Shown here piece after piece: positions 7,603 to 49,345 of a stretch of DNA of 64,000 bases. Source of the stretch: an uncultured Paracoccaceae bacterium (GTDB lineage Bacteria > Pseudomonadota > Alphaproteobacteria > Rhodobacterales > Rhodobacteraceae); NCBI GenBank assembly GCA_947503925.1, contig CANNFQ010000012.1, positions 1 to 64,000 of the forward strand. Reading direction: 5' to 3'. Within the stretch, counting starts at the first letter, position 1. Each line of letters begins with the position of its first letter. Below the pieces are notes generated by a model. The model was given only the letters and a program-made list of their open reading frames with translations, ran no database searches and had not been told where the DNA came from. The position numbers and the translations under genes are program-made.

Positions 7603-7711
7603 GAACATGTTGACGGAAATAGCAGCTCTTTCAAAAGCGGATGCGCCGGGCTTTGCGCATGTCTATAAGACGAGTGAGTTAACGTTGTGTCGCATTGCGG
7701 GGGCTGAGGAC

Positions 7712-28032: not shown

Positions 28033-28087
28033 ATCCGCCCTTATGATGTCGATTTCGTATTTGGGAAATGACAACCGCCTTGGTATA

Positions 28088-28109
28088 GGAAATTTATATA
28101 TCCATTTCC
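28088..28109. promoter_or_regulatory. Candidate operator between aspartate dehydrogenase and DapA-like genes
   Basis: GGAAAT (28088-28093) and ATTTCC (28104-28109) form a perfect inverted repeat with a 10-base AT-rich spacer, in the divergent promoter region. The half ATATCCATTTCC closely resembles GATATCCAGTTTCC found ahead of the dioxygenase gene. LysR regulators bind such dyads; the LysR gene nearby is the obvious candidate. Confidence 0.45.
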
Positions 28110-28199
28110 AGCGAATGGCATTGGTCTCGGGATGCTGCGCGGTCCTTACTGCGCAGCAAACCACGTCGGCCAATAGCGCCCTTACCGAGACTGAAAGCC

Positions 28200-29153
28200 A
28201 TGAAATACGCCAAGCACGAAGCCAAGGACTATGCGCGCGAAACGATGCGCGGCATTTGGGCGGCAGCGCTCAATCCGTTTGATGATGACCTGTCTCTTGA
28301 TGAAGCTGGCCTGCGGCACAACATCCGGCACTGGATTGATGACCTGCACATTCAGGGGTTGTTTATTGCAGGCAAACAAGGAGAATTCTGGTCGATGACG
28401 CTTGAGGAACGCAAGCGTAACATGACTATCGCCGCCGACGAATGCGGTGAAAAGGCGGCGACCATCATGTCGATCTCCGATCAGAATGTGGATACTGTGT
28501 TGGCGCTTGGTCGTCACGCGCAGGAATGCGGGGCCGACTATGTTGTGGTTCATGCCCCGATGCTTAGCTTTTGTCATGATCGGGATGAGGTTTTGTATAA
28601 TTATTACAAATACCTATGCGACCGGCTAGATATCGGCATCGCAATGTGGAGCCATCCTGACAGCGGCTACTTGATGCCACCTGAAACCTGCGCACGGATC
28701 GCTGAGTTGCCCAACATAATGGCCATCAAATACTCTGTCCCGCGCGAGATGTATGTGCGGCTGACCAAGATGGCAGGGGATAAGCTTCTCGTTTCCACCT
28801 CGTTGGAAGACGATTGGTTGAATAATATCGAGGAGCTTGGCTGGCAACTCTATCTCTGCTCTTCGCCGCCCTATCAGCTTCAGACAAAAAATGATCTGCG
28901 GATGCATGAATATACGGGGCTGGCCTTCGCCGGAAAGTTTGATCAGGCGCGCCGTGTTCGTGACAGCATGGAGCCGGTCCGCGCAGCGATCCGTGAAACA
29001 AAACCTGCGGGAAAGCCCACGGCACATGGGAAGTATTGGCAGGAACTGCTGGGACAGGTTGGGGGGCGGGTACGTCACCCGATGCTGGAACTAACGGACA
29101 CGGAAAAAGCCGCGACACGCGTCGCCTTTAATGATTGCGGACTCGTGGTTTGA
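28200..29153 (+). CDS. Dihydrodipicolinate synthase/N-acetylneuraminate lyase family aldolase
   Basis: This 317-residue TIM-barrel enzyme of the DapA/NanA superfamily has the Schiff-base lysine at Lys177 (IMAIKYS) and the substrate-carboxylate loop GKQGEFWSM (near 58-66). The position that usually holds the catalytic Tyr (as in YNVPGRT) reads MWSHPDSGY here, so Trp150 or another residue replaces it. It is thus not a housekeeping DHDPS but probably a pyruvate-dependent lyase or hydratase-aldolase of a catabolic route. It is the first + gene of the island, ahead of the dioxygenase and TRAP genes. The product it cleaves is unknown. Confidence 0.85.
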   Translation: MKYAKHEAKDYARETMRGIWAAALNPFDDDLSLDEAGLRHNIRHWIDDLHIQGLFIAGKQGEFWSMTLEERKRNMTIAADECGEKAATIMSISDQNVDTVLALGRHAQECGADYVVVHAPMLSFCHDRDEVLYNYYKYLCDRLDIGIAMWSHPDSGYLMPPETCARIAELPNIMAIKYSVPREMYVRLTKMAGDKLLVSTSLEDDWLNNIEELGWQLYLCSSPPYQLQTKNDLRMHEYTGLAFAGKFDQARRVRDSMEPVRAAIRETKPAGKPTAHGKYWQELLGQVGGRVRHPMLELTDTEKAATRVAFNDCGLVV

Positions 29154-29190
29154 TATCGCCAGACACCATGACGCGCGGCATGGATATTAC

Positions 29191-29218
29191 GTTTCCAGAT
29201 ATCCAGTTTCCGGGAAAC
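29191..29218. promoter_or_regulatory. Candidate operator upstream of the dioxygenase-TRAP unit
   Basis: GTTTCC occurs at 29191-29196 and again at 29206-29211, where it forms the 13-bp palindrome GTTTCCGGGAAAC (29206-29218). The segment GATATCCAGTTTCC resembles the dyad ahead of the DapA-like gene. It sits 68 bp before the dioxygenase start. It is probably the binding site of the same regulator. Confidence 0.45.
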
Positions 29219-29246
29219 CCATGTTTTTTGTGCCAGACTTGCCTAA

Positions 29247-30842
<1,596 letters not shown>

Positions 30843-30856
30843 AAAAACAACAGCAC

Positions 30857-30890
30857 CCGGGGGCGCAGTTATCATGCGCCCCCGGTTTTT
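30857..30890 (+). terminator. Intra-operon attenuating terminator between TRAP binding-protein and permease genes
   Basis: CCGGGGGCGCA and TGCGCCCCCGG form a perfect 11-bp GC-rich stem with a 7-base loop, followed by TTTTTG. It lies 14 bp after the binding-protein stop and 16 bp before the small-permease start. It probably ends most transcripts so that the binding protein is made in excess over the permease. Confidence 0.85.
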
Positions 30891-30905
30891 GTTGGAGGGT
30901 AGGGC

Positions 30906-31445
30906 ATGATCGGGCGCATTTCGGCGGTTTGGGCGCAGATCGAACTAACGTTGGCCGCAGCATTGGCGGCATCGATCACGCTGTTGATCCTGCTCAACGT
31001 CGTCACGCGCAGCCTCGGCGCTGCCCTGTTCTGGGTTGATGAGCTGGCGATCTATGCCATGGCCTGGATGGCGTTTCTTGGGGCCTCAGCGGCGGTGCAT
31101 TATGGCCATGCCGTTGCCGTCACGATCCTGGCGGACACATTGCCGCCCGCGTTGCGCAAGGTAACGGCGAAGCTTGTCGATGTGATCGTGTTGATCTTTG
31201 CACTGTTCATGATCTGGTTCTGCTGGCGGTGGTACGCCCCGCTGGAGCTTGTAAAAAATGGCTTTGATGTAAAAGCCTTCCAGGGCTCCACATTCAATTT
31301 TATCTACGCTGAACCCACGACCACACTAGGGATCAAGAAGTTCTGGGTCTGGAGCGTGATGTGGCTTTTTGCGCTGGGCGCAACATTGCACAGCCTTGCC
31401 AATCTGTTTGAACAAGGCCCACCACGGAATGAGGCGGCCGCATGA
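30906..31445 (+). CDS. TRAP transporter small permease (DctQ type)
   Basis: This 179-residue protein has four hydrophobic segments and the DctQ pattern (ITLLILLNVVTRSLGAALFWVDELAIYAMAWMAFLGASAAVHYGHAVAV). It partners the large permease in the sodium-driven TRAP transporter. The ATG follows GGAGGGTAGGGC, a good ribosome site just after the attenuating terminator. The stop overlaps the start of the large-permease gene (ATGA), so the two are translated together. Confidence 0.92.
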   Translation: MIGRISAVWAQIELTLAAALAASITLLILLNVVTRSLGAALFWVDELAIYAMAWMAFLGASAAVHYGHAVAVTILADTLPPALRKVTAKLVDVIVLIFALFMIWFCWRWYAPLELVKNGFDVKAFQGSTFNFIYAEPTTTLGIKKFWVWSVMWLFALGATLHSLANLFEQGPPRNEAAA

Positions 31446-32701
31446 CCCCGCTAATCTTTGCTTTCAAACTTCTTATCGCGGTGCCGGTCGCCCTTGTTCT
31501 GGCGTTGACCGCAATATGGTACATTTGGGAAAGCGGTAACACCGTTCTTTATGACAGTTTCGCCCAGAAGATGTTTTCCGGCCTGGAAAACTACGGGCTT
31601 CTGGCCATCCCACTCTTTATGCTGACCGGCGAGATGATGAACGAAGGCGGAATGACACGCCGCTTGATCAATGGCGCACGGGTCTTTGTCGGCGGGTTTC
31701 GCGGCGGGTTGGCCTATATCAACCTGTTGGCGAACATGTTCATGGCCGCCATCATCGGATCGGCAACCGCTCAAATTGCGGTCATGGCGCGTGCCATGAC
31801 GCCGGAGATGGAGGCCGAAGGTTATGACAAAGGGTTTGCTGCAGCCACAACGGCAGCGGGCGGATTGCTGGCTCCGGTGATCCCGCCATCAATGATGTTC
31901 GTGATTTACGGCGTATTGGCACAAGTGCCCATCGGCGACATGTTTCTGGCTGGTATCTTGCCCGGACTTTTGCTGGCGGTATCTTTTGCGGTGGTCATCA
32001 CGCTTATCGGATTTGCGCAGGGTTTTCCGAAAGGTGATTGGTTCACGCGTGGCGAGGCCATTTCTGCGCTGCTGTCATGTCTGCCTGCCACGCTGATCCC
32101 TTTTGCGATCATTGGCGGTATTCTTTTCGGCATCGCGACACCGACAGAGTCTGCGGCCATCGCATCGCTTATCGCGTTCCTGATTGGCTGGCTTGTCTAC
32201 GGAGAGCTGAACCCGAGCGCGATCTTCAAAATGTTCAAGCGCACCGCCGTGAATGCATCGATGATCATCTTCATGATCGCAGCTGCAAGCGTTTTTGGCT
32301 GGGTGATCATATACGAGGCGCTACCGCAAAAGCTGGCAGCCTTGATTACATCAATGACCAGCGACCCATTCATGTTCCTGCTGATTGTGAATGTCATCCT
32401 GTTGCTCGTGGGCATGTTGATCGATGGTATCGCCGCGGTCATCCTGATCACACCGATCCTGCTGCCTATCGCCATGAATGACTACAGCATCAGCCCTTAT
32501 CAGTTCGGCGTTGTGATGTGCCTCAACCTCGTGCTGGGCCTGTTGACACCACCGGTCGGTGTCGGCCTCTACATCGCGTCGTCGATGAGTGGAACATCAC
32601 CCGGGCGCATCCTGAAATCGCTTTGGCCATTCCTGCTTGCGGTGGCAGTCATCCTCGTCTGCCTTAGCAGGTTCCCTTGGCTTTCGACTGCGCTTTTGTA
32701 G
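31442..32701 (+). CDS. TRAP transporter large permease (DctM type)
   Basis: This 419-residue membrane protein has about twelve hydrophobic segments. It shows the DctM signatures IPLFMLTGEMMNEGGMTRRLINGARVFVG, AAATTAAGGLLAPVIPPSMMFVIYG and LVLGLLTPPVGVGLY. It forms the elevator transport domain of the TRAP system fed by the upstream binding protein. It starts inside the stop of the small-permease gene. The 3' end converges with the Rieske-ThDP gene, 27 bp away, and no terminator was seen between them. Confidence 0.94.
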   Translation: MTPLIFAFKLLIAVPVALVLALTAIWYIWESGNTVLYDSFAQKMFSGLENYGLLAIPLFMLTGEMMNEGGMTRRLINGARVFVGGFRGGLAYINLLANMFMAAIIGSATAQIAVMARAMTPEMEAEGYDKGFAAATTAAGGLLAPVIPPSMMFVIYGVLAQVPIGDMFLAGILPGLLLAVSFAVVITLIGFAQGFPKGDWFTRGEAISALLSCLPATLIPFAIIGGILFGIATPTESAAIASLIAFLIGWLVYGELNPSAIFKMFKRTAVNASMIIFMIAAASVFGWVIIYEALPQKLAALITSMTSDPFMFLLIVNVILLLVGMLIDGIAAVILITPILLPIAMNDYSISPYQFGVVMCLNLVLGLLTPPVGVGLYIASSMSGTSPGRILKSLWPFLLAVAVILVCLSRFPWLSTALL

Positions 32702-32728: not shown

Positions 32729-34708
32729 TTAGACTAATTCCGCGTCGGTCATGATCTCCACGATAGCCGGGCCATTCACATCAAGGGCTGCTTGAATTGC
32801 CTCTTCAAGTTCAGTGGCATCAGTTACCTTGTGCCCGTGACCCCCGCAAAGTCTGGCGAACGCGGCGAAGGATGGGTTGATCAGATCGGTCTCCCAGACA
32901 GGCCACTCCCCCGATCGTTGTTCTTTGGAGATTTTGCCAAGCTCGCCGTTGTGCAGCAGGATATGCGTGACATCCATGCCGTATTTCACGGCTGTAGTGA
33001 AATCCATCGGATATTGCCCAAAACCGCCATCACCGGAAATCGACACCACCTTGCAATCGCGCAGCGCAGCGACATCTTGGGTCGCAGCCCAGGCACCAAG
33101 CCCGGCGGGGAAACCGTATCCGATAGATCCCAGATAACCGGACATTAGAACCCGCTGGCTACCTTTGGTTTCAAGGTAACGGCCGAATGAATATGTGTTG
33201 TTGCCTACATCAACTGCAAAAATCGTGTTATCCGGCACAAGCCGTCCTAGAATGTCGAAGATCGCGAATGAGTGGATACCACGTCCGTGATCCTCTGCCA
33301 GGCGGCGCTGTTTTTCATCACGCCAGATCGCCCAGCGTTCGGCCAATTCAGATCGTTGGTCGACGGCTTCAGAATTGACGCTGATCAGCGGGCTGGCCGC
33401 GTCGCAGAATGCGCCGATATCACCCCAAACCGGGACTTTTACCGCATGAAACTTGCCAAGCTGCATCCGGTCATAATCGACCTGAATGATGTTTTCCTTC
33501 AATGCGATCCCGGTATGGTTTGAAAAGCTGGCACCAAAGGCCACCAGTACATCAGCCTCATTCATGAACCAGCTGGCAATTGGTGTTCCTGACCGTCCGA
33601 TTACACCGGCGCCCAATGGGTGGCTATCTGGCACCAGCCCCTTGGCCTTGAACGTTGTGACCACCGGCGCGCCGATTTTCTCTGCCAGCGCTATGATTTG
33701 CGCCCGTGCATCATAGGCCCCATGGCCGACGACGAACATCGGTCGCTTGGCGCTGTTCAGAAGGTCGGCAGCGGCTTTCATATCGCTTTGCGATGGTGTC
33801 ACCCGTGTTCCACCCATACGCCCAACGGGTTCCGCTGCGGGCTTGTCAGATGGCACGGTCTGTACATCATCGGGAAAGATCAGGTGCGCCACATTTTGTT
33901 CAACGATGGCATTCTTGCAGGCCAGTGACATCAGCTCTGCATGATTTGAACTGTTCAACACGGGTTGCGAAAAGGTTGAGACAGCCTGAAATGCCGATTT
34001 CAGGTCGATATCCTGAAATGCGCCGGGGCCAAAGACCTGTGTTTGCACCTGACCTGTCAACGCCAGAACGGGCGCCCGGTCAACCTTGGCGTCCCACATG
34101 CCGGTCAGCAGATTGGTCGCACCGGGTCCCGCAATTGTCAGGCAGGCCGCCGGTTTTCCGGTCAGTTTGCCGTAGGCGGACGCGGCAAAAGCAGCGGCCC
34201 CTTCGTGGCGGACACCATAATATTTTAGCTTCTTCTCACCGACCTGCCGTCTGATTGCATCCGCCAATCCAAGGTTCGAATGCCCGACCATCCCAAAGAC
34301 GGTCCGCACACCCCAGTTCGTCATGGTTTCAACCATCACATCTGACACATCCCGGACATGGGGTGGTTCGGCTTCCAGCCCGACAAAAATCTCACCGTTG
34401 CGAATGTCGAGCGGGTAGATCTCTTGCCCGGTGTCTTCATGACCACCCGGCGGCCTGCCAGTCAGCGGGTCGAAATCCCAGCCATGCCAAGGGCAGCGAA
34501 TCCAGCATTTGTCATCAATGCCTTTTTCGATCGACCCTTCGCCCAGCGGTCCTTTTTGGTGTGGGCAATGGTTGTTCATTGCCGCCCACTGACCGTCGAA
34601 ATGCACAAGGCAAATGGATGTCGTGCGCGCCGTCACTGTTTTGACGCGACCCTCCGGCAGGTCGCTGATGTGGCCAACGGAAATCCAGTCAAGATTCTCT
34701 GTTGTCAT
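32729..34708 (-). CDS. Rieske [2Fe-2S] domain fused to a ThDP-dependent pyruvate-oxidase-like enzyme
   Basis: This 659-residue fusion has an N-terminal Rieske domain (about 5-112) with both cluster motifs: Cys48-Pro-His50 and Cys72-Pro-Trp-His75. A complete thiamine-diphosphate enzyme of the acetolactate-synthase/pyruvate-oxidase class follows. Its N-domain (about 120-290) has GVRHEGAAAFAASAYGKL, with the cofactor-activating Glu. Its C-domain (about 480-650) has GDGGFGQYPMDF...LLHNG, the GDG-x(25-28)-N metal motif. Such enzymes decarboxylate a 2-oxo acid; the attached Rieske domain suggests the electrons go to an iron-sulfur chain. It is the last gene of a tightly coupled operon with two other Rieske proteins. 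The substrate is unknown. Confidence 0.9.
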   Translation of the reverse strand: MTTENLDWISVGHISDLPEGRVKTVTARTTSICLVHFDGQWAAMNNHCPHQKGPLGEGSIEKGIDDKCWIRCPWHGWDFDPLTGRPPGGHEDTGQEIYPLDIRNGEIFVGLEAEPPHVRDVSDVMVETMTNWGVRTVFGMVGHSNLGLADAIRRQVGEKKLKYYGVRHEGAAAFAASAYGKLTGKPAACLTIAGPGATNLLTGMWDAKVDRAPVLALTGQVQTQVFGPGAFQDIDLKSAFQAVSTFSQPVLNSSNHAELMSLACKNAIVEQNVAHLIFPDDVQTVPSDKPAAEPVGRMGGTRVTPSQSDMKAAADLLNSAKRPMFVVGHGAYDARAQIIALAEKIGAPVVTTFKAKGLVPDSHPLGAGVIGRSGTPIASWFMNEADVLVAFGASFSNHTGIALKENIIQVDYDRMQLGKFHAVKVPVWGDIGAFCDAASPLISVNSEAVDQRSELAERWAIWRDEKQRRLAEDHGRGIHSFAIFDILGRLVPDNTIFAVDVGNNTYSFGRYLETKGSQRVLMSGYLGSIGYGFPAGLGAWAATQDVAALRDCKVVSISGDGGFGQYPMDFTTAVKYGMDVTHILLHNGELGKISKEQRSGEWPVWETDLINPSFAAFARLCGGHGHKVTDATELEEAIQAALDVNGPAIVEIMTDAELV

Positions 34709-34988
34709 GGCTATCGTCCTTTTCTGGCGCGAGGGCTGGAAATATGAAGTCGATGAATTTTTGTAGGTAAGTCAGGATCAGGAACACGCTGACGGCCCAG
34801 ATCAACAGCTCGAACGGGGCCAGCGGGGTGCCGCGCAGCCAGCGACCCAGCAGGCCGCCGCCGGGACGAAGTTCCTGCCAGCCAAAAAGGCCGGACCGTG
34901 GCCAGAGATCCAGAAACCAGAACCGCGACAGGTAAAGCATGATGATGCCAAGTACGGCCATCAAAAAAAGAAGGGTGAAGCGCTTCAT
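34689..34988 (-). CDS. Small two-helix membrane protein of the Rieske operon
   Basis: This 99-residue protein has two predicted membrane helices (about residues 3-20 and 60-80) and an acidic C-terminal tail (APEKDDSHDNRES). Between the helices lies a loop with WPRSGLFGWQELRPGGGLLGRWLRG. No cysteine, haem ligand pattern or known family is recognised. Its start overlaps the preceding gene by four bases and its end overlaps the Rieske-ThDP gene by 20 bases. It is therefore translated with them and may be an assembly or anchoring subunit. Confidence 0.75.
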   Translation of the reverse strand: MKRFTLLFLMAVLGIIMLYLSRFWFLDLWPRSGLFGWQELRPGGGLLGRWLRGTPLAPFELLIWAVSVFLILTYLQKFIDFIFPALAPEKDDSHDNRES

Positions 34989-35746
34989 TCGTCAATCAGC
35001 TCCATCGTCGTGTCGTCCATGCGCAGGACAAGGATGTCGCCGCGCCGTTCTAGGTCGCCTTCGAGCGTGATGAACTGACCGACGTAATCATAGGCTGCGG
35101 GTGGCAAGGTTGTGCCGTCAGGCCCGGTGATGAGCATGAAATCGGACCCCTCAATAGGCTGGGTCGAGACGAAAACAGGCGGCACGTCCCCGAGCAGGCA
35201 CAGATTGGCGCAGGCTTTGTGCGCGAGGCCGCGACCCGGGCGCATCGCCCCGTTCAGGCATTTGCCATCGCAAATCTCGCCCGCGACTTTCCAGCGACCT
35301 AAAGCTTCGGTTTCCATCGTGGGTGGATCGCCTTCGACCGCTATCAGCCCCCGTTGCCCGCCACGCAACTGCATCATGTCGATTGTGCCACGTTGCAGGA
35401 TGATGCCGGACACCTCTGCCAATTGCCCGTCCAGCCCCATCGCCCGCATATCCACCCCGGATTTGCCCGCGCTTGCCAGCATCAGGGTTTTGCCCGGCTT
35501 GATCAGGTCATTCCCTTCGGTCACCCGCAGCAGTGGGTATGGGGTTAGTTCGATCACGCCGGTGACGGTCTGGCGACCATAGTCAAAGCGAAAACCGGAC
35601 GCGGCTGGTTCATCCTGCGTGGCCCCGATCAGCAAGCCTGTGAACACGAAAATCGCGACCACGAACGCCGCTGTCAGCAGCAGGAACTTCCGTAAAGGGC
35701 CGGGGATGGGCAGATAGCCAACGAAAAAAGGGGTCTTGCCGCTCAT
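34985..35746 (-). CDS. Membrane-anchored Cys-rich protein of the Rieske operon, unknown family
   Basis: This 253-residue protein has one membrane helix near the N-terminus (residues 20-41) and a mostly beta extramembrane part. Four cysteines form two CxxxC pairs (Cys159, Cys163, Cys179, Cys183), with His177 between them. They could bind a metal or cluster, or form disulfides. The beginning of the soluble part (FRFDYGRQTVTGVIELTPYPLLRV) and the end (FITLEGDLERRGDILVLRMDD) look like OB-fold strands. I do not know a family. Both ends overlap neighbouring operon genes by four bases. It may be an electron-transfer or maturation subunit; that is speculation. Confidence 0.75.
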   Translation of the reverse strand: MSGKTPFFVGYLPIPGPLRKFLLLTAAFVVAIFVFTGLLIGATQDEPAASGFRFDYGRQTVTGVIELTPYPLLRVTEGNDLIKPGKTLMLASAGKSGVDMRAMGLDGQLAEVSGIILQRGTIDMMQLRGGQRGLIAVEGDPPTMETEALGRWKVAGEICDGKCLNGAMRPGRGLAHKACANLCLLGDVPPVFVSTQPIEGSDFMLITGPDGTTLPPAAYDYVGQFITLEGDLERRGDILVLRMDDTTMELIDE

Positions 35747-36798
35747 ACCGTGACCTCCGTAACGGCTATCGGTTCAACATAGGTTCCGGGCGCATTTGCA
35801 TCGCCATGGACCTGCACCGCGGTCCCATGCAGCCTGAGATTGTAGGTCGGCACCATTTCGGTGAAGGGCGCGGGTGAACGCCCGTTGGTCACATCATACT
35901 GAAACCCGTGCCAGGGGCAGGTCACAAGACAGTCAATGACCCGCCCCTCGCCCAACGGGCCGTTCTGATGCGCGCAGGCATTGGAAATCGCGCTCAGCTT
36001 ACCATCCTGCTTAAACACGGCGACACGGTCACCACTGGGCAGGATTTTTATCTTGGCAAAGCCTTCGGTGATATCGCCCGCATCGCAGATATCGATCCAG
36101 CCACCTGCATCATCGCCCAATTCATCGCCTTTGCGCCAATCAAGCAGGGCGGCATAGGCATGTAATCCGGCAACGGCCCCTGCGCCCCCGATAAAGATCA
36201 CGGTGAAGGTGTGGTTTTGCTGGTCCTGCAGAATGCCCAGACTAACATGAGCCACCACAGCGACATAGGCAAAATAGATCAGGCAATGCATGCGTTTCCA
36301 AATTGGCGGTGTCAGGAACTTCATCCAAAAATCATGGCTGGTGGCAGAAAGAAACAAGAGACAGATCAGTGCGAAGATACCAAAGATTTCAAACGGAAAA
36401 CCTGCCAGTTGGCCGTAGCTGGTATTCGCAAATAGCAGCGCTTCGTATTTGTCTGAGCTGGAGAATGCAAAATACCAATTCAGGATGTAGCTGGCATGGC
36501 TGATCGCCACGAAGGTTGTCATCACCCCAAAATGGCGGCGGTTGTAAAGAAGTGGCAAAAACCGCCGGTCGATCCGCGCTAGCGGCCCGATGCACAGGAT
36601 CACCGTTAGCATGACAAAGGCACAGGCCCCAAATGCACGGGCGTTATGGACTTGCGGGTTGATCGGGAATTCATGGCTAAGAAGTTCGGGACTGACGAAC
36701 AGGAATATCCAAAGGAATGCGACCACACCGGCGAGCATGATCCCGTCATAAAGCCATTTGTTCCGGTTCCATTGGACGGGGATGTACTTGACGCTCAT
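35743..36798 (-). CDS. Ferric-reductase-like membrane domain fused to a C-terminal Rieske domain
   Basis: In this 351-residue fusion, residues 15-220 hold about six membrane helices of the ferric-reductase/MsrQ type, with candidate haem-ligand histidines His89, His101, His155, His171 and His184. Residues 232-340 form a Rieske domain with Cys275-Ala-His277 and Cys294-Pro-Trp-His297. The protein could pass electrons between a soluble iron-sulfur centre and membrane b haem, and so to quinone. The usual FAD/NAD domain of ferric reductases is replaced by the Rieske domain. The gene overlaps both neighbours by four bases. The electron donor and acceptor are unknown. Confidence 0.88.
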   Translation of the reverse strand: MSVKYIPVQWNRNKWLYDGIMLAGVVAFLWIFLFVSPELLSHEFPINPQVHNARAFGACAFVMLTVILCIGPLARIDRRFLPLLYNRRHFGVMTTFVAISHASYILNWYFAFSSSDKYEALLFANTSYGQLAGFPFEIFGIFALICLLFLSATSHDFWMKFLTPPIWKRMHCLIYFAYVAVVAHVSLGILQDQQNHTFTVIFIGGAGAVAGLHAYAALLDWRKGDELGDDAGGWIDICDAGDITEGFAKIKILPSGDRVAVFKQDGKLSAISNACAHQNGPLGEGRVIDCLVTCPWHGFQYDVTNGRSPAPFTEMVPTYNLRLHGTAVQVHGDANAPGTYVEPIAVTEVTV

Positions 36799-37163
36799 TC
36801 CGCGGGCTCCGACAATTGAATCGGTGCAATATCAGCGGGCCAAGATTGGCGCATGGAAAGACCTGCGGCAATGATCAACACAATGGCGACGGGCATGATC
36901 AGGGCGAAAACCTGATGCGACCGGCGAGGCGGGCGGTAACGGTGCGACCATTCATCCTTGCCATTCACCAAGATGTTCCAGCGCCACAGGATCAGCGGCC
37001 AGATCAGCAGAATACCGGGGACAAGCAATGGGCGGAACACATATGCGCCGCGCGCATCCTCGTCCAAGCGATCGATGCCGAATGTCAGGAAAGGGATGGC
37101 GACCAGCGCCCCAATGCCGCCCCAGATCTTAACGATGAACAGGATTAGTTCGGCTTGGTTCAT
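36795..37163 (-). CDS. Small three-helix membrane protein of the Rieske operon
   Basis: This 122-residue protein has three predicted membrane helices (about residues 6-29, 44-61 and 84-104). The central loop has WRWNILVNGKDEWSHRYRPPRRSHQVF, rich in Trp, Arg and His. No family is recognised. It is coupled by four-base overlaps to the glutamate-synthase-like gene before it and the ferric-reductase-like gene after it. It could be a subunit of the membrane complex that the ferric-reductase-like protein forms. Confidence 0.75.
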   Translation of the reverse strand: MNQAELILFIVKIWGGIGALVAIPFLTFGIDRLDEDARGAYVFRPLLVPGILLIWPLILWRWNILVNGKDEWSHRYRPPRRSHQVFALIMPVAIVLIIAAGLSMRQSWPADIAPIQLSEPAE

Positions 37164-38770
37164 GCAGCCCCCCCGAAATTGACACCCGAAATGTCAGCCA
37201 TGTCTTTCTTCCAGGTCGTTAGGTCATCATGGTTGAACTTTGACAGGTGATCATGGCCGCAGGCGCGCGCCATAACCTGCATCAATTCGACTGATGCGCC
37301 GAAAAAATTCGCGAGCTGCTGGGCTGATTTTTCGGCGATCAAACGGTTAACGAGGTGGGGTTTTTGTGTGGCAATGCCCACCGGGCAGTTATTGGTGTGA
37401 CAGGCGCGCATGGCCAGACATCCAATCGCCTGCATTGCGGAATTCGAAACGGCGATAGCGTCCGCACCCAGCGCCATGGCCTTGATAAAGTCAGCCGGTT
37501 TGCGCAGCCCACCCGTGATAACAAGCGTAATATCGCCGCGCCCTTGTTTGTCGAGATGTTGGCGCGCGCGCGCTAAAGCCGGGATCGTCGGGACAGAGAT
37601 ATTGTCGCGGAAGATGATCGGGGCAGCACCGGTTCCGCCACCGCGCCCATCAAGAATGATATAGTCAACGCCAACGGCCAGTGCCGCGTCAATGTCCTTT
37701 TCAATATGCTGCGCGGACAGCTTGTAGCCGATGGGGATCCCGCCGGTTCGGTCGCGCACCTCATCGGCGAAATCCTTGATTTGGCTGACCTCAGTCCAGT
37801 CGGGAAAGCGCGGCGGCGAAATCGCAGATGTGCCTTCCTCCAGACCGCGCACTTCTGCGATCTTGCCTTTGACCTTGTTGCCCGGCAGGTGACCGCCTGT
37901 TCCAGTCTTGGCTCCCTGACCGCCTTTGAAGTGGAACGCCTGAACCTTGTCCAGCTTGTCCCAGCTGAATCCAAATCGGGCCGAGGCGAGTTCGTAGAAA
38001 TAGCGCGTATTTTCTGCCTGTTCTTCTGGTAACATGCCACCTTCGCCGGAACAGATACCTGTTCCGGCCAGTTCCGCCCCGCGTGCCAGCGCGATCTTGG
38101 CGGATTCCGACAAGGCCCCAAAGCTCATGTCGGACACGAAAAGTGGTATATCCAGTTTCAGCGGCTTTTGCGCATTCGGGCCAATCACAACCTCGGTCCC
38201 GACTGCATCATCATCCAACAAGGGTGGTTTTGCCAGCTGTGCGGTCAAAAGCTGAATGTCGTCCCAGTCGGGTAACTCCGTGCGCGGAACACCCATCGAG
38301 TCAACGATGCCGTGATGCCCCGTCTTGGACAGGCCATTCTTGGCATAGTTCTGGATCATCCCGTTATAGGGTTCGGCGTCAGTACCGTGGCTCGGGTCTG
38401 CATAAAGCCCAAGATAGGTGTCCCGGTTATAGGGCTGAGGATTCGCGTAGCCCCACGCATTGATTTCGTCAGCATCGACAAGGACGTCGTCGCCATCGAC
38501 CCATGATTTGAATTTGGGCAGTTTTTCGTCATTGGCGTAGGCCGAAACACCGCTATCCAGCCGGTAATCCCAGTTATGAACGCCGCAGATCAAATCATTG
38601 CCCCGCACATGCCCATCCGACATCAACGCGCCACGATGCAAGCAGCGCCCATAAAAGACGGATATCTCGTCATCAAATCGGACAACCACCAGATCGACCT
38701 CTCCGACGATCGCATATTCTGGCTTGCGATCTTGCAGATTGCTGCGTTTGAAGATGGCTGTGGCGTTCAT
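37160..38770 (-). CDS. Rieske domain fused to an FMN-binding glutamate synthase-like enzyme
   Basis: This 536-residue fusion has an N-terminal Rieske domain (about 1-100) with Cys43-Leu-His45 and Cys62-Gly-Val-His65. The rest is the FMN/synthase domain of glutamate synthase: LFVSDMSFGALSESAKIALARGA, GEGGMLPEE, GQGAKTGTGGHLPG, YIILDGRGGGTGAAP and the 3Fe-4S cysteines Cys451, Cys457 and Cys462 (CLAMRACHTNNCP). The glutaminase domain of GltB is absent, so free ammonia, an amine or another donor would be used. The ATG at 38770 follows GAGGAC; the longer frame is rejected. The attached Rieske domain suggests iron-sulfur electrons rather than NADPH. The reaction is unknown. Confidence 0.9.
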   Translation of the reverse strand: MNATAIFKRSNLQDRKPEYAIVGEVDLVVVRFDDEISVFYGRCLHRGALMSDGHVRGNDLICGVHNWDYRLDSGVSAYANDEKLPKFKSWVDGDDVLVDADEINAWGYANPQPYNRDTYLGLYADPSHGTDAEPYNGMIQNYAKNGLSKTGHHGIVDSMGVPRTELPDWDDIQLLTAQLAKPPLLDDDAVGTEVVIGPNAQKPLKLDIPLFVSDMSFGALSESAKIALARGAELAGTGICSGEGGMLPEEQAENTRYFYELASARFGFSWDKLDKVQAFHFKGGQGAKTGTGGHLPGNKVKGKIAEVRGLEEGTSAISPPRFPDWTEVSQIKDFADEVRDRTGGIPIGYKLSAQHIEKDIDAALAVGVDYIILDGRGGGTGAAPIIFRDNISVPTIPALARARQHLDKQGRGDITLVITGGLRKPADFIKAMALGADAIAVSNSAMQAIGCLAMRACHTNNCPVGIATQKPHLVNRLIAEKSAQQLANFFGASVELMQVMARACGHDHLSKFNHDDLTTWKKDMADISGVNFGGAA

Positions 38771-38799
38771 GGCTGTCCTCGTTGCTTTGGGTTTTTTGG

Positions 38800-40062
38800 T
38801 CAGATGGTGTCGTTGTCCGTGGGTCTCATCTTGTTTTCTACAGGCTGTGTTTCCGGGCAGACGCCCGAGGTCGAAACCCGCTGTCCGTACCACCTTGCCG
38901 CAGGTGCTGCGGTAACGCCATGCAATACCGCGCTAATCCATACTGTGTTCACGGCGATATGAAGTATGGTTTCGCCCAGATCATGGGGGAGCATCTCGAT
39001 CACCAGCAGGGCGAAAAGTGCTGTGGCCAGCCCGCGTGGACCAAACCAGCCAAAAAACAACCGCGTCAGGTACGATGCATCAGTGGCAATCAAAGAGACC
39101 CAGATCGCCAGTGGGCGGACGATGAACAGGCTGACCATTATCAGCGCAAAAACTGGCCAGGTCAGATGCATGATGGCTTCCGGCACCAATGCCGCACCCA
39201 AAAGCAGGAATGCGGACCATGACAGCAACTGCCCTTCGCTTTCGACAAATTCATAGATGAATTTGCAGCGACCCTGCACAACGGCACCAAAGACCAATCC
39301 ACTGACAAAGGCCGAAATGAAGCCATTGCCGCCGATTTGGGTTGCCGCAAGATAGGACAAACCGGCCAGCGCAAGCGCCCCGATGCCTTCATATGTTTCT
39401 GAGGTCAACGCATTGTCTTTTGCAAAAATCAGAACGCGCCCACCGATCCAACCCATGATGACCCCGGTAACCGGCCCCAGAACCACCTGTGCCAATCCGA
39501 ATGCGAGCCATGATACATTGGATTGCGACATCGCGCTTGCTAACAAGCTGGCCAATAGCAGGATCAGCGGTAGGGTCAGCCCGTCATTCAAGCCACTTTC
39601 AACCACCAGCGCACGCCGGGGTCGTATCGGAACGGCCTCATTCGAGACGACCGCCTGCCCAAGCGCGGCATCGGTTGGTGCCATGATGGCCGCCAACAAA
39701 ACCACGGCAAGCAGCGACCAGTCCGGCAACAGGATCGTGCCTGCCACTGCGCCAAAGATGACAGTTAGCGGCAAGCCGATCAGTAACATCCGGGTTGGCC
39801 AGACACGCCGCATTTGCAAGGCACGCATATCCGTGCTTGCCGCATCAAGGAACAGCAGAATGACCAAGGCGATCTCCGCAACAGGATGTAAAAGTGCGCG
39901 CGCCTGATCCGGTGGTATCAACCCGCCCAGTGAAATAAAGGCGCCCAAGGCAAGGAAAATCATTGGTGCTGTTAAGATGGTAGAACCAAGCCGCTGACCA
40001 AGCATGCAAAATGCCATTGTCGCGCCGCAGATAAGCGTAAGACCAAGCATTGTGCGGCGCAT
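38800..40062 (-). CDS. Na+/H+ antiporter, CPA1/NhaP type
   Basis: This 420-residue cation:proton antiporter has about twelve membrane helices. The conserved Asp-bearing motifs are APTDAALGQAVV and VVESGLNDGLTLPL (ND pair), with SWSAFLLLGAALVP and the Arg-containing FFGWFGPRGLATALFALL in the second half. It exchanges Na+ or K+ for protons. It lies only 29 bp upstream of the Rieske/glutamate-synthase gene on the same strand, so it may be the first gene of that operon and link ion gradients to it. AGGAG is close to the ATG at 40062; a second ATG 12 bases in is possible. Confidence 0.88.
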   Translation of the reverse strand: MRRTMLGLTLICGATMAFCMLGQRLGSTILTAPMIFLALGAFISLGGLIPPDQARALLHPVAEIALVILLFLDAASTDMRALQMRRVWPTRMLLIGLPLTVIFGAVAGTILLPDWSLLAVVLLAAIMAPTDAALGQAVVSNEAVPIRPRRALVVESGLNDGLTLPLILLLASLLASAMSQSNVSWLAFGLAQVVLGPVTGVIMGWIGGRVLIFAKDNALTSETYEGIGALALAGLSYLAATQIGGNGFISAFVSGLVFGAVVQGRCKFIYEFVESEGQLLSWSAFLLLGAALVPEAIMHLTWPVFALIMVSLFIVRPLAIWVSLIATDASYLTRLFFGWFGPRGLATALFALLVIEMLPHDLGETILHIAVNTVWISAVLHGVTAAPAARWYGQRVSTSGVCPETQPVENKMRPTDNDTI

Positions 40063-40325
40063 AACTCCTGATTGCGGTCAAGTGACTCAAAACATCATGC
40101 GCAGGTCCGGCTCAGGTCAAGAAGTTTATATAAAGCCGGTCTTGAGCAGCCGCAGCTGCGGCATTCGCAAGACGCCCCTCAGAAGGGGAGCATGCACCAA
40201 ACACAGCAAGATTGCGCAAGACATTGCTTCCGGATCAGGTTTATACAGGCAAATCATGACCCGCGTGCCAGTGGCAACTTCCGTTACTCATGAATTCATA
40301 TGTGAACCACGATAAAGGACACATC

Positions 40326-41372
40326 ATGTACCGCATCTCGACTTTACTCGTGTCTTTCCTTCTTGCCGTCTCGGTGGGTGGCCCCGCTGTGGCGCAGGAA
40401 AATACTGTGCGCCCGGCAAAGTTGATGGTTGTCGGGGCGGATACTGATGGCATTACCCGGCAATTCTTTGGGCAGGTCGTTGCACGCCAAACTGTGGATT
40501 TGGCGTTTCAGGTATCCGGGCAAATCGTGGCGTTTCCGGCGACAGAAGGGCAGGAGGTTGCACAAGGTGCCGTGATTGCAAAGCTTGATGAAGAACCATT
40601 TGAATTGCAGCGCCAACAGGCTGTTTTGCAACTGGAACAGGCTGATCGTCTTCTGACGCGCTTGAATAATCTGGGTGCCTCTGCGTCCGAGGTGTCGAAG
40701 CAAGACGCCGAAACCCAACTGGCTTTGGCGCGTGTTGCATTGCGGAATGCGGAATACTCATTGGAAAACGCCACGCTGCGCGCCCCGTTTGAAGCGCTTG
40801 TCGCCAGCAGGAACGTTGCAAATTTCACTACCACAAACGCGGGAAGCCCGGTCATCAGGTTACATGACATGTCGGAATTGCGGATCGATATCGACGTGCC
40901 GGAAATCCTGTTTCAGCGGGCCGGGCAAGATGCTGATGTGGCATTGATGGCGCGGTTTCCAACCAGCGACGAAACATACCCGTTAGAGATCAGAGAGTTC
41001 AACGCAGAGGCGTCTTCAATTGGACAGACCTTTCGTTTGACGCTTGGCATGGAGCGGCCAGATGATCTGAATGCGCTGCCGGGTAGCTCCGTCATCGTAC
41101 TGGCAACACTGAATGAAGGGCCGCCGCGCCTGATTGTGCCCGCAACGGCAATTCAGATCGGCAATGATGGATCGACCAGCGTTATGCAGTTTATGCCATC
41201 CGAAGGCGAAACTGGCATCCTACAAAAAGTGGATGTTGAGGTAAGCGCCACGCGCGACGGGGCGTTCATGATCACTGATGGATTGGATGTCGGAACGGAA
41301 ATCGTCAGAATCGGCGCACAACTGCTGGCAGACGGCGACACCGTCCGCCGTTTTTCAGGTTACGCAAATTAA
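40326..41372 (+). CDS. RND efflux periplasmic adaptor (membrane fusion) protein
   Basis: This 348-residue adaptor has a signal peptide (YRISTLLVSFLLAVSVGGPAVA) and HlyD-type domains. The lipoyl/beta-barrel halves (VDLAFQVSGQIVAFPATEGQEVAQGAVIAKLDEEPFELQ and NATLRAPFEALVASRNV) flank a short coiled-coil hairpin (about residues 85-145). It bridges the inner-membrane pump encoded next to an outer-membrane channel, which is not in the window. The ATG at 40326 follows AAAGGA; the longer frame is rejected. No lipobox Cys is present. It is divergent from the antiporter gene, with a 263-bp gap in which no clear motif was seen. Confidence 0.92.
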   Translation: MYRISTLLVSFLLAVSVGGPAVAQENTVRPAKLMVVGADTDGITRQFFGQVVARQTVDLAFQVSGQIVAFPATEGQEVAQGAVIAKLDEEPFELQRQQAVLQLEQADRLLTRLNNLGASASEVSKQDAETQLALARVALRNAEYSLENATLRAPFEALVASRNVANFTTTNAGSPVIRLHDMSELRIDIDVPEILFQRAGQDADVALMARFPTSDETYPLEIREFNAEASSIGQTFRLTLGMERPDDLNALPGSSVIVLATLNEGPPRLIVPATAIQIGNDGSTSVMQFMPSEGETGILQKVDVEVSATRDGAFMITDGLDVGTEIVRIGAQLLADGDTVRRFSGYAN

Positions 41373-41385
41373 TCGAGGGTAACTG

Positions 41386-44300
41386 ATGAACATAGCGCGG
41401 GCGTCGATTAATCTGCCGATCTTCACTTGGATCATCATTCTGACCTGCCTGTTTGGCGGCATATGGGGATTTAACACGGTCGGTCGTCTGGAAGACCCGG
41501 CATTTACTATCAAACAAGCGGTGGTGATCACCCAATACCCTGGGGCATCGGCGCAACAGGTGGCGGAAGAGGTCTCAGAACCGCTAGAGGCCGCCATTCA
41601 GCGCATGGCGGAGGTCAGCAAGATCAAATCCGTCAATCGCCCAGGCGTGTCCCGAATTGATGTCGAAGTTCAGGATACAATTGCGGGGGATGAACTGCCG
41701 GCAATCTGGACCGAATTGCGCGAACGTTTGCAGAATGTGCAAAACGAACTACCCAGCGAGGCGACGCCACCTTTTGTCGATGATGGGTTTGGGGACGTTT
41801 ATGGTATCTTCTTCGCGGTGACGTCCGATGGGTTCACAGATGCCGAACAACATCAGTTGGCGACCTTTCTGCGGCGCGAAATCCTGACTGTTGAAGGGGT
41901 GGCAGATGTTGATGTCGCGGGACTCCCGGCAGAGGCAATATTTGTTGAACCCGACCTTTCGGTCAGTTTTCAACTCGGTGTGGATCCACAGATCATCCAA
42001 CAGGCGCTGGCAACATCAAATTCGGTGCCTCAGGCGGGATCGGTGACAGCAGATGCCACCCGCACACAGATCCAGACCGCCGAAGGGTCGGACACCGTTA
42101 GCGAAATTGCGGCCCTGACCATCGGGGTTGGTGGTGATCTGATAAACCTGATCGACATCGCGGATGTCAGTCGGGGGCGGCAGGAAAACCCCGCCCAGAT
42201 CATCCGCTACAACGGGCAATCGGCTTTCACAATCGGCGTGTCCGGCGCGACCAATGACAACATCGTTGATGTTGGCAACCGTGTTGACGCACATCTTGCC
42301 TCACTCGCGGCGGAAATTCCGTATGGGGTCGTGCTGCACCCGATTTATCAGCAACATGTGGTTGTTGATGAATCCTCAACCGGGTTCTTGATCAACCTTG
42401 CGATGTCAGTCGGCATCGTGGTGCTGGTGCTTGCCATTTTCATGGGCGTTCGCGCCTCTTTGGTCGTTGGCATCACGCTTTTGCTGACGGTTGTCGGGAC
42501 ATTACTGTTCATGTCGCTCTTCTCGATTGAGATGGAGCGCATTTCGCTTGGCGCGCTCATCATCGCGATGGGCATGCTGGTCGACAACGCAATCGTTGTC
42601 GCGGAAGGCATGCAGATTGCCATGGCCCGTGGCAAATCTTCGCGTGATGCGGCAGATGAGGCGGCCGGCAAAACCCAAATACCGCTGTTGGGTGCAACGG
42701 TGGTTGGTATTATGGCCTTTGCGGGGATTGGCCTTAGCCCGGATTCAACGGGTGAATTCATGTTCTCGCTATTTGCCGTGATCGGCATCTCGCTTCTATT
42801 GTCATGGGTTCTGGCTGTCACTGTTACCCCGCTTCTTGGGCATTACATTTTTAAGCGGAGCAGCGATGATGGATCGGATCCATATGATGGGCCGGTCTTT
42901 CGGGGCTATGCTGGAATTTTACGCGGCGCGCTTCGGATCCGCTGGCTGGTACTTGCCGGGCTTGTTGGGATCACTGCGGCCAGTTTCGTTGGATTTGGTT
43001 CGGTAAAGCAGCAGTTCTTTCCGAACTCAAACACGCCGCTTTTCTTTGTCCACTACACAATGCAGCAAGGCACCCCGATCAAGACGACCTCTGAAAAAAT
43101 GGAAATCGTAGAGGCTTATCTTGCTGCGCATGAGGATGTCGTTTCCGTGTCTACCTTTGTTGGCCAAGGGGCCACACGTTTTCTGCTGACCTATGGGTCC
43201 GAACCGCCCAACCCCGCTTACGGGCATTTGATCATCCGGACCGAAACGCTCGATCTTATTCCACCGCTTCAGGCCGAGTTGGAGGCTTTTGCCGCCGAAA
43301 ATCTGCCCGAGGGCGAATTCAGAACGGAACGGCTCGTCTTTGGTCCGGGCGGCGGCAGCCCAATCGAAATACGCTTTTCCGGCAGCGACCCGCAGGTGCT
43401 GCGCGATCTGTCAGATCGGGCGATTGGACTGATGACAGAGGCATCGCCGAACATCCTCGCCCCGCGGATTGACTGGCACGAACAAGAGCTTGTACTGCGG
43501 CCGCGTTATGTCACTGAACGCGCGCAGGCGGCGGGCATCACACGTGATGACGTGGCGGATGCCATCCTGTTCGCGACCGATGGTGTCACGGTGGGCACCT
43601 ATCGTGAAGGCGACCGGGCAATCCCGATTGTGACACGCGTTGCGCCGGGTGCGGATGCCGGTATTCTGGATCAGGTTCTTGGGACGCAGGATCAATCGTC
43701 GATCCTGCCTATCGAACAGGTTATTGATGGTTTTGAACTTGAACCACAGAACACGATCATTCGTCGTCTGGACCGTCTGCCTACGATCACGGTTGGCGCC
43801 AGCATCCCCTCTGATATGACAGCAGCCCAGGTCCATGCAGAGATACGTGATGTGATCGAAGCGATTAGCTTGCCCATCGGATATAGAATGGAATGGGGCG
43901 GCGAATTCGAGTCCTCGGCCAATGCGAATGCCAGTCTCGCATCACAATTGCCCGTCACCATCCTGATTATGATCCTGATCACGATCCTGTTGTTCAATGC
44001 GCTGCGCCAATCGCTCATTATCTGGCTGCTTGTTCCGATGGCGGTGACGGGTGCGGTTATCGGCCTTCTGGGCACGGGCTTACCCTTCACCTTTACAGCG
44101 TTGCTGGGCTTGTTGAGCCTGTCTGGCATGCTGATCAAGAACGGGATCGTGCTGGTTGAAGAAATCGATATCGTCCGCCGGGAAGGTTCCGCGCTGCGCA
44201 AGGCGATTGTCGGGGCGTCGGTGTCACGTCTGCGGCCCGTCCTGCTGGCTGCTGCAACGACAATCCTTGGGATGGTCCCCTTGCTGGGTGATGCGTTTTT

Positions 44301-44436
44301 CGTTTCCATGGCGGTCACGATCATGGGAGGGTTGGCATTTGCCTCGATCCTGACGCTGATTGCGGCCCCTGTGCTTTATGATGTCTTCTTTGGCGGGGGA
44401 AAGGACCAGGAGGTGACCGGCGATGCGGTAGCCTAA
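41386..44436 (+). CDS. RND efflux transporter permease (AcrB/MdtB-like)
   Basis: This 1016-residue pump has the duplicated RND layout: twelve membrane helices in two sets with two large periplasmic loops. Recognisable motifs are VITQYPGASAQQVAEEVSEPLE (N-terminal porter region), SLGALIIAMGMLVDNAIVVAEGM with the TM4 proton-relay Asp, and the C-terminal FTALLGLLSLSGMLIKNGIVLVEE. It uses the proton gradient to export hydrophobic compounds. It lies 13 bp after the adaptor gene and is co-transcribed with it. No outer-membrane factor gene and no TetR regulator are adjacent. The substrate is not predictable. Confidence 0.95.
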   Translation: MNIARASINLPIFTWIIILTCLFGGIWGFNTVGRLEDPAFTIKQAVVITQYPGASAQQVAEEVSEPLEAAIQRMAEVSKIKSVNRPGVSRIDVEVQDTIAGDELPAIWTELRERLQNVQNELPSEATPPFVDDGFGDVYGIFFAVTSDGFTDAEQHQLATFLRREILTVEGVADVDVAGLPAEAIFVEPDLSVSFQLGVDPQIIQQALATSNSVPQAGSVTADATRTQIQTAEGSDTVSEIAALTIGVGGDLINLIDIADVSRGRQENPAQIIRYNGQSAFTIGVSGATNDNIVDVGNRVDAHLASLAAEIPYGVVLHPIYQQHVVVDESSTGFLINLAMSVGIVVLVLAIFMGVRASLVVGITLLLTVVGTLLFMSLFSIEMERISLGALIIAMGMLVDNAIVVAEGMQIAMARGKSSRDAADEAAGKTQIPLLGATVVGIMAFAGIGLSPDSTGEFMFSLFAVIGISLLLSWVLAVTVTPLLGHYIFKRSSDDGSDPYDGPVFRGYAGILRGALRIRWLVLAGLVGITAASFVGFGSVKQQFFPNSNTPLFFVHYTMQQGTPIKTTSEKMEIVEAYLAAHEDVVSVSTFVGQGATRFLLTYGSEPPNPAYGHLIIRTETLDLIPPLQAELEAFAAENLPEGEFRTERLVFGPGGGSPIEIRFSGSDPQVLRDLSDRAIGLMTEASPNILAPRIDWHEQELVLRPRYVTERAQAAGITRDDVADAILFATDGVTVGTYREGDRAIPIVTRVAPGADAGILDQVLGTQDQSSILPIEQVIDGFELEPQNTIIRRLDRLPTITVGASIPSDMTAAQVHAEIRDVIEAISLPIGYRMEWGGEFESSANANASLASQLPVTILIMILITILLFNALRQSLIIWLLVPMAVTGAVIGLLGTGLPFTFTALLGLLSLSGMLIKNGIVLVEEIDIVRREGSALRKAIVGASVSRLRPVLLAAATTILGMVPLLGDAFFVSMAVTIMGGLAFASILTLIAAPVLYDVFFGGGKDQEVTGDAVA

Positions 44437-45469: not shown

Positions 45470-47008
<1,539 letters not shown>

Positions 47009-47030
47009 TCCTCGGACATAGGAGCACCTT

Positions 47031-47903: not shown

Positions 47904-47920
47904 ACCCCGGAGAAACATAA

Positions 47921-49345
<1,425 letters not shown>

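Follow-up and report, generated by a model that had tools for sequence, protein, structure and literature searches.

In a 64,000-nucleotide stretch of DNA from an uncultured Paracoccaceae bacterium (contig CANNFQ010000012.1, hereafter the window), a minus-strand run of seven genes (40062-32729) encodes an antiporter, three fusion enzymes with a Rieske domain and three small membrane-associated proteins without assignment. The fusions join a Rieske domain to a thiamine diphosphate (ThDP) enzyme (ThDP-R), to the FMN domain of a glutamate synthase (GltS-R) and to a ferric-reductase-like (FRD) membrane domain (FRD-R), and our results indicate that these three enzymes are very probably functionally linked. 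We regard them as a dedicated, linked system because each pair co-occurs across genomes even when the genes are unlinked, whereas a GltS without the Rieske domain, used as a control, does not co-occur with them. As for how the system might work, we favor, with a probability of about 0.4, a model in which a PoxB-like source would feed Rieske-to-Rieske transfer and an MsrQ/YedZ-like membrane passage that ends at u253, a protein presumed to lie in the periplasm, while GltS-R would serve as another outlet and stress repair or detoxification would be the role.

Co-occurrence and genomic neighborhoods

In a family sample of 199 genomes, one per genus (limits of 1e-150 for ThDP-R, 1e-150 for GltS-R and 1e-40 for FRD-R), ThDP-R was found in 13, full GltS-R in 18 and FRD-R in 20. 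ThDP-R and GltS-R are common to 12 genomes (12/13 of those with ThDP-R; expected 1.2, p 4e-14), as are ThDP-R and FRD-R (12/13; expected 1.3, p 3e-13), and GltS-R and FRD-R are common to 13 (13/18 of those with GltS-R; expected 1.8, p 7e-12). The genes are separated by over 15 kb or placed on different contigs in 6/12 of the genomes sharing ThDP-R and FRD-R, 6/13 of those sharing GltS-R and FRD-R, and 2/12 of those sharing ThDP-R and GltS-R. GltS-R was counted only where the match reaches the Rieske part (query start ≤46), leaving out FMN-half matches from 19 genomes (GltS-R is present as well in three of these) and a broken copy in G360 (locus L155), where Rieske-GltS is split into an open piece with 84% identity and another with 90%. 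The 19 FMN-half genomes form the control, and their overlaps with ThDP-R (2), GltS-R (3) and FRD-R (3) give p-values of 0.36, 0.24, and 0.29. The CDGSH nature of the control GltS was read in loci L146, L152, L156, and L158, checked by Pfam in L146, and is presumed for the rest.

A class sample of 192 genomes was analyzed with limits of 1e-150, 1e-120, 1e-8, and 1e-30, leaving out of the GltS-R count a partial match (G059) and FMN-half matches in G039, G191, and G200. All six genomes with full GltS-R (4 genera) hold both ThDP-R and FRD-R (by genus 4/4, p 7e-6), while ThDP-R and FRD-R, each present in 10 genera, share 4 (p 0.001). Both samples were tested as if genera were independent of one another, and for this reason the p-values are not to be taken literally. 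Protein distances across loci also correlate (r 0.83 for ThDP/GltS, 0.76 for ThDP/FRD, 0.79 for GltS/FRD, and 0.95 for FRD/u253), with species history included in these values.

Scanning with each species represented by one genome yielded 130 stretches, 123 of them holding ThDP-R relatives; the neighborhood counts below refer to the best 80 of these 123, of which 24 are shorter than 15 kb, so that absences there may be false. By record title the relatives are mostly Alphaproteobacteria, with Cyanobacteria, Planctomycetes, Bacteroidota, Myxococcota, and others also represented and many metagenome-assembled genomes among them; ThDP-R is also plasmid-borne in four haloarchaea and one Mycobacteroides, at 52-58% identity. 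The gene is rare, occurring in 13/199 family genera, in 12/192 class genomes (in G059 the contig ends before the Rieske part is reached) and in 5/299 genomes of a phylum draw, where the matches listed come mostly from the window's own family. GltS accompanies ThDP-R in 53 of the 80 stretches (in one, L060, as a CDGSH form), FRD in 35, u253 in 35 (all with FRD), the antiporter in 28, and relatives of the small membrane proteins sm122 and sm99 in 30 and 23, respectively. An earlier interpretation of the window (the sequence-only reading) had postulated a membrane redox chain and proposed neighborhood analysis across genomes as a test for a dedicated system; the co-occurrence and the recurring neighborhoods back a dedicated redox system that is widely conserved, and the genes are not neighbors in this strain alone.

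The locus is composed of two modules that are separable elsewhere, module A (antiporter, GltS-R, and ThDP-R) and module B (FRD-R, u253, and the small proteins), with B nested inside A in this lineage. Records with Rhodobacterales in their titles account for most cases of the nested order. The two modules also adjoin each other in L076, a Planctomycete, and in L079 and L082, both Bacteroidota; often FRD/u253 is found at a different genomic site or by itself. This separability of the antiporter/GltS/ThDP set from the FRD/u253 set led us to reject a single fixed operon. A role in anti-phage defense was also rejected, as PADLOC models of defense systems matched 0/7 proteins at E≤1e-5.

Several further genes recur at these loci. 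An FMN-reductase-like gene adjoins ThDP-R in 4/5 cyanobacterial loci and lies two genes away in Mycobacteroides. Malic-enzyme genes stand beside ThDP-R or FRD in three lineages (L043/L044, L082, and L112; Pfam confirmed the family for the L112 and L082 proteins), and in L043 a peroxiredoxin-family gene is found further down the antiporter run. On one Rhizobium plasmid, module B occurs on its own and has NrsF-type genes and a chlorite-dismutase-family gene as neighbors. A possible pteridine link would come from an SDR gene placed before module B, whose product in L016 scores 302 bits on PRK09134 (cut-off 281); SDR genes occur in 7/80 stretches. In L112, L098, L099, and L124 module B stands beside a recurring pair, of which one gene encodes a ThDP enzyme (resembling acetolactate synthase in L112) and the other a weak TPR protein; three of these four loci also have a CoA transferase and OpgC. 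In L083 (12017-12868) and 15 other loci there is a protein with weak likeness to DUF5996, frequently encoded after ThDP-R or GltS-R, that may be a further component; its DUF5996 matches fall below the cut-off in two tested members, and the L082 member gave none.

Conserved features of the seven proteins

Open reading frames, motifs, and Pfam matches confirm the three Rieske fusions, the antiporter, and the tight junctions on which the sequence-only reading was built: in gene order, a 29-bp gap between the antiporter and GltS-R is followed by overlaps of 4, 4, 4, 4, and 20 bp. Residue conservation was assessed in length-filtered, non-redundant subsets of homologues (36 for ThDP-R, 24 for GltS-R, 43 for FRD-R, and 44 for u253), in which the Rieske ligands C, H, C, and H are invariant in 36/36, 24/24, and 43/43 sequences of the three fusion families.

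ThDP-R (32729..34708, minus strand, as are all seven genes) combines a Rieske domain (Pfam 4e-17) with three ThDP domains (9e-36 to 9e-30). The closest solved relative of the ThDP part by sequence is PoxB of E. coli (229 bits), and acetolactate synthases are also among the near relatives. PoxB is likewise the best fold match (E 7e-39) of an AlphaFold model with a predicted local distance difference test score (pLDDT) of 82.4 and a predicted template-modeling (TM) score of 0.80; the two share 28% identity, with TM scores of 0.71-0.72 by query and 0.83-0.90 by target. Glu169, K592, K595, and E596 are invariant in 36/36 homologues. Among the 95 members of the ThDP cluster, 89 carry the CxH...CxxH motif pair within their N-terminal 200 residues. 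In three of the remaining six it comes later in the sequence, after CDGSH motifs (3/95: L075, L119, and L122); two (L043_2 and L044_2) are other, Rieske-less ThDP enzymes of 562 aa; and L066, a true member, shows no Rieske domain in its frame. The L075 and L119 proteins open with two CDGSH motifs ahead of the Rieske domain, and L122:9488-12148 is a single protein with CDGSH, Fer4_19, CDGSH, Rieske, and ThDP in that order.

GltS-R (37160..38770, 536 aa; Pfam Rieske 2e-11, Glu_synthase 2e-90) carries the glutamate-synthase FMN domain with 3Fe-4S cysteines. A longer GTG frame starts at 38893; most homologues match it only from query residues 22-46, and because the matches begin at about residue 40 the start is most likely at 38770. 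The 3Fe-4S cysteines C492, C498, and C503 (numbered from 38893) and the FMN-domain residues K323, Q326, and K329 are invariant in 24/24 homologues. Pfam detects neither a class II glutaminase domain nor an NAD(P)H domain in the protein, and the host genome holds a separate GltB-like frame of 1550 aa; bulk glutamate synthesis by GltS-R is judged unlikely because of this second frame and the missing glutaminase match. In L060 the gene before ThDP-R encodes a CDGSH-GltS fusion in place of Rieske-GltS. Such swaps between Rieske and CDGSH connectors, together with the FMN-reductase-like neighbors, favor an electron-transfer role for the added domains. The Rieske domains of ThDP-R and FRD-R resemble each other (31/81 identical, z 24). 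The CDGSH-GltS genes of L152 and L158 lie among others that resemble, by eye, glutathionyl-hydroquinone reductases and a hemerythrin-like protein, with a pirin-like gene also nearby in L158 on the same basis.

FRD-R (35743..36798; Pfam Ferric_reduct 6e-11, Rieske 7e-15) has a ferric-reductase-like membrane domain, nearest to MsrQ/YedZ, followed by a C-terminal Rieske domain. Five hydrophobic segments exceed the script threshold and a sixth (about 89-112) was added by eye; the Rieske domain probably lies on the cytoplasmic side, a placement based on the loop charges. R87, R88, H89, H101, H155, H171, H184, and H213 are invariant in 43/43 homologues and include candidate haem ligands. According to PMC3591440, FRD superfamily proteins are electron carriers, Rieske is one of the domains fused to FRD, and YedZ and STEAP have an Arg where the first haem His stands in others. 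Counted by residue spacings from H101, R87 of FRD-R would fall on the YedZ/STEAP Arg position under this rule, with H101, H171, and H184 as putative haem histidines.

The sequence-only reading had listed three unassigned membrane proteins, and indeed none of the three (34689-34988, 34985-35746, and 36795-37163) has a family match in Pfam (E≤0.1) or NCBIfam (E≤0.01). By hydrophobicity, sm122 (36795..37163) has three hydrophobic segments and sm99 (34689..34988) two. The description needs revision for u253 (34985..35746), which is not polytopic: it has one hydrophobic helix, which would anchor it, and a large, presumably periplasmic beta-rich domain. D160, C163, M168, H176, C179, and C183 are invariant in 44/44 homologues and are candidate ligands. 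The u253 structure model has a pLDDT of 84.7, with the motif loop 165-172 modeled at low confidence; against the PDB it gave no fold match at E≤0.001 (weak OB-like matches, best E 0.014), and no solved relative was found by sequence below E 0.02 (best E 0.024). The protein follows FRD closely, being present in 35/35 FRD stretches and adjoining FRD in 11/12 FRD genomes of the class sample; it was not found in the twelfth, G205.

The first gene of the run encodes the cation/proton antiporter NHE (38800..40062; Pfam Na_H_Exchanger 6.9e-34), which scores 133 bits on the NCBIfam potassium/proton antiporter model, below its cut-off of 355.

Regulation and flanking genes

In some other alphaproteobacteria a sigma-70 extracytoplasmic function (ECF) gene and an anti-sigma gene adjoin the antiporter (assigned by Pfam for the L083 pair), and their relatives occur in 11/80 and 9/80 ThDP-R stretches, respectively. 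The pattern GTAACN-N15-GCATC was recognized on visual inspection of 14 upstream regions and is present in exact form upstream of the antiporter in eight of these and in L044; among the nine loci, L043 and L044 are nearly identical and L052 and L054 similar. In L043 the pattern also precedes the Rieske-less ThDP gene and then a malic-enzyme-cluster gene. Over 2.34 Mb of loci, a spacing of 15 gives 19 matches (eight in L043/L044), compared with 0-5 for other spacings from 10 to 21. Permuted words at spacings 14-16 average 9.5 matches and reach up to 33, vs 23 for the real pattern, and it is therefore the spacing, not the count, that constitutes evidence for a promoter. Searching nine genomes returned 22 sites vs 16 for a reversed control (6 vs 1 in G409), on which basis a genome-wide regulon was rejected; the ECF-type promoter may instead mark this operon and few others.

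In the window itself, an ECF sigma factor gene followed by a gene for a ChrR-type cupin protein (7607-8922, plus strand) forms an RpoE-ChrR-like pair about 24 kb from the operon. The genes directly downstream (27262-32701) encode aspartate-dehydrogenase-like and dihydrodipicolinate synthase-family proteins, a 3-hydroxyanthranilate dioxygenase, and a tripartite ATP-independent periplasmic (TRAP) transporter. TRAP-type clusters in other orders occur in L006 and L034; the TRAP/3-hydroxyanthranilate set was left out of the system because the whole set in this order is limited to L004 and L005, the two closest relatives. Divergent from the operon are plus-strand genes for a resistance-nodulation-division efflux adaptor and permease (40290-44436), and beyond these are ATP synthase genes encoding delta, two alpha/beta-family subunits, and a gamma-family subunit (44909-49345, plus strand).

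Proposed mechanism, alternatives, and known systems

In the model that we favor, the proteins of the system would connect through their Rieske [2Fe-2S] domains. ThDP-R would be a soluble pyruvate-oxidase-type 2-oxo acid dehydrogenase that delivers electrons to its own Rieske domain, not to quinone, from which they would pass to the cytoplasmic Rieske domain of FRD-R. FRD-R would then carry them over the membrane on haem b to the anchored periplasmic u253, which would reduce an oxidized target in repair or detoxification under stress, while GltS-R, as another flavin partner attached to this wire, would reduce an imine or a comparable substrate. The direction of electron flow and the chemistry of the system must be regarded as tentative. 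Entry of electrons from a 2-oxo acid, which the sequence-only reading had also proposed, is plausible given PoxB as the nearest solved relative and the malic-enzyme genes in three lineages. Nothing in the analysis supports its second donor, quinol, and for its sodium/proton link the frequent antiporter neighbor (28/80 stretches) is the sole support. A position for GltS at the end of a single chain, as that reading had it, is in doubt: the modules are separable, with FRD/u253 often elsewhere or alone, GltS-R lacks a glutaminase domain in a host that has a GltB-like frame, and 17/80 loci have neither partner within the stretch. That it knew of no described pathway with this gene set agrees with our literature search, which found none in a body of papers mostly outside subscription journals.

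Several observations weigh against the favored model. The 17/80 ThDP-R stretches that hold neither GltS nor FRD are one; GltS-R is also missing altogether from 13/21 genomes chosen for having no GltS beside ThDP, including all five cyanobacteria among them, and 6/18 GltS-R and 8/20 FRD genomes of the family sample are without ThDP-R. GltS-R has a Rieske domain with only remote similarity to those of the two other fusions (z 6.7 and 10.4). ThDP-R scores 383.5 bits on the curated NCBIfam pyruvate-oxidase model, whose cut-off is 742, and its K592 stands at the position of PoxB Phe465, such that the chemistry may be other than pyruvate oxidation. On the regulatory side, a second Rhizobium plasmid has no NrsF and chlorite-dismutase neighbors, the GTAACN-N15-GCATC pattern is missing from 6/14 regions (L038, L042, L050, L056, L113, and L145), and the window operon has no such site. 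A search at the window operon for TGATCC-TAAG, which we take to be the RpoE-type promoter pattern, gave 0 matches with 0.47 expected, so that control by RpoE-ChrR is neither supported nor excluded.

The association of ThDP-R with GltS-R is the tightest of the three (12/13 genomes, 10/12 within 15 kb; GltS in 53 of the best 80 ThDP stretches, counting the CDGSH form of L060), and it could reflect an NADPH-free amination chain, in which ThDP-R oxidizes a 2-oxo acid and the electrons pass through Rieske to the FMN of GltS-R for reduction of an imine to an amino acid, with FRD/u253 as a separate overflow or membrane donor. This is in essence the earlier idea without quinol, and the invariant 3Fe-4S cysteines and K323, Q326, and K329 (24/24) are consistent with it, but glutaminase and NAD(P)H domains were not found by Pfam, a 1550-aa GltB-like frame is already in the genome, the co-occurrence with FRD is equally strong, and GltS-R is absent from 13/21 selected ThDP-R genomes; we consider it somewhat unlikely. 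Unlikely too is a sensor role, in which the Rieske domains would respond to redox state or oxidants and turn their enzymes on or off, with the ThDP enzyme a carboligase or decarboxylase and the genes joined by a stress regulon, not by electron flow. The ECF/anti-sigma link and promoter in some sister clades, the NrsF genes next to module B in one Rhizobium plasmid, the ThDP-R loci with neither partner nearby, and the kinship with acetolactate synthases would all suit sensors; the invariance of the cluster ligands in aligned members of three families, the extra Fe-S domains stacked on ThDP-R, which resemble a wire, and the description of FRD family proteins as electron carriers (PMC3591440) argue for electron transfer.

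The modules might also be independent, sharing habitats and horizontal transfer and nested here by chance, given that each is found without the other, that the nested order is mainly confined to Rhodobacterales-titled records, and that the co-occurrence and distance statistics include species relatedness. This we regard as improbable, because the co-occurrence holds for unlinked genes, with one genome per genus and a related-gene negative control, and the modules are also neighbors in the Planctomycete L076 and the Bacteroidota L079 and L082.

If the favored model of Rieske-linked electron export is true, Rieske domains could connect enzymes of the pyruvate-oxidase type both with an electron exporter in the membrane and with a flavoenzyme of the glutamate-synthase type, bypassing NAD(P)H and quinone, and a testable role would follow for Rieske-FRD proteins, u253, and Rieske/CDGSH-GltS fusions, to which the accessible portions of the literature surveyed assign no function. 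Relatives of the ThDP enzyme span several phyla, haloarchaea among them. A broader proposal, on which we place slightly less weight than on the direction and chemistry above, is an undescribed class of wiring in bacteria and haloarchaea, in which Rieske and CDGSH plugs would be interchangeable on soluble carbon-oxidizing and nitrogen flavoenzymes and on a haem protein spanning the membrane. Electrons released by a 2-oxo acid would then reach reductive amination or a new periplasmic metal/thiol center in u253 without NAD(P)H or quinone. The 2-oxo acid would perhaps be dicarboxylic or otherwise anionic, sensed by the invariant K592/K595.

Each enzyme has a recognizable counterpart among known systems. 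Like PoxB and the pyruvate:quinone oxidoreductase of C. glutamicum, ThDP-R has three ThDP domains and keeps the catalytic Glu (Glu169) and F231-Q232; it differs in its extra N-terminal Rieske domain, in the Lys for Phe465 replacement already described, and in that its alignment stops at about residue 528 of the 572 of PoxB, leaving without counterpart the C-terminal tail with which PoxB binds the membrane. GltS-R shares the FMN and 3Fe-4S domain of GltB and ferredoxin-dependent glutamate synthases but has no detected glutaminase domain and is 536 aa long, vs about 1500. Stand-alone GltS FMN domains acting on non-standard amines are known from N-methylglutamate synthase of the MgsC type; to our knowledge these carry no Rieske domain. 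Closer in design is the type 5 CISD protein, described in PMC3174974 as tandem CDGSH motifs fused to Glu_synthase: its Glu_synthase domain is 66-71% identical to that of GltS-R and both have an N-terminal [2Fe-2S] connector, but that of GltS-R is Rieske, not CDGSH, the neighbors differ in the loci read, and the CISD form does not co-occur with ThDP-R or FRD-R. FRD-R differs from MsrQ/YedZ of the MsrPQ methionine-sulfoxide reductase in its C-terminal Rieske connector, in its score on the MsrQ model (37.6, cut-off 130), and in its partner, which is u253, a protein outside Pfam families, and not MsrP. It shares with that system the FRD membrane domain, MsrQ being its best FRD-type NCBIfam match, and an adjoining gene for a presumably periplasmic partner.

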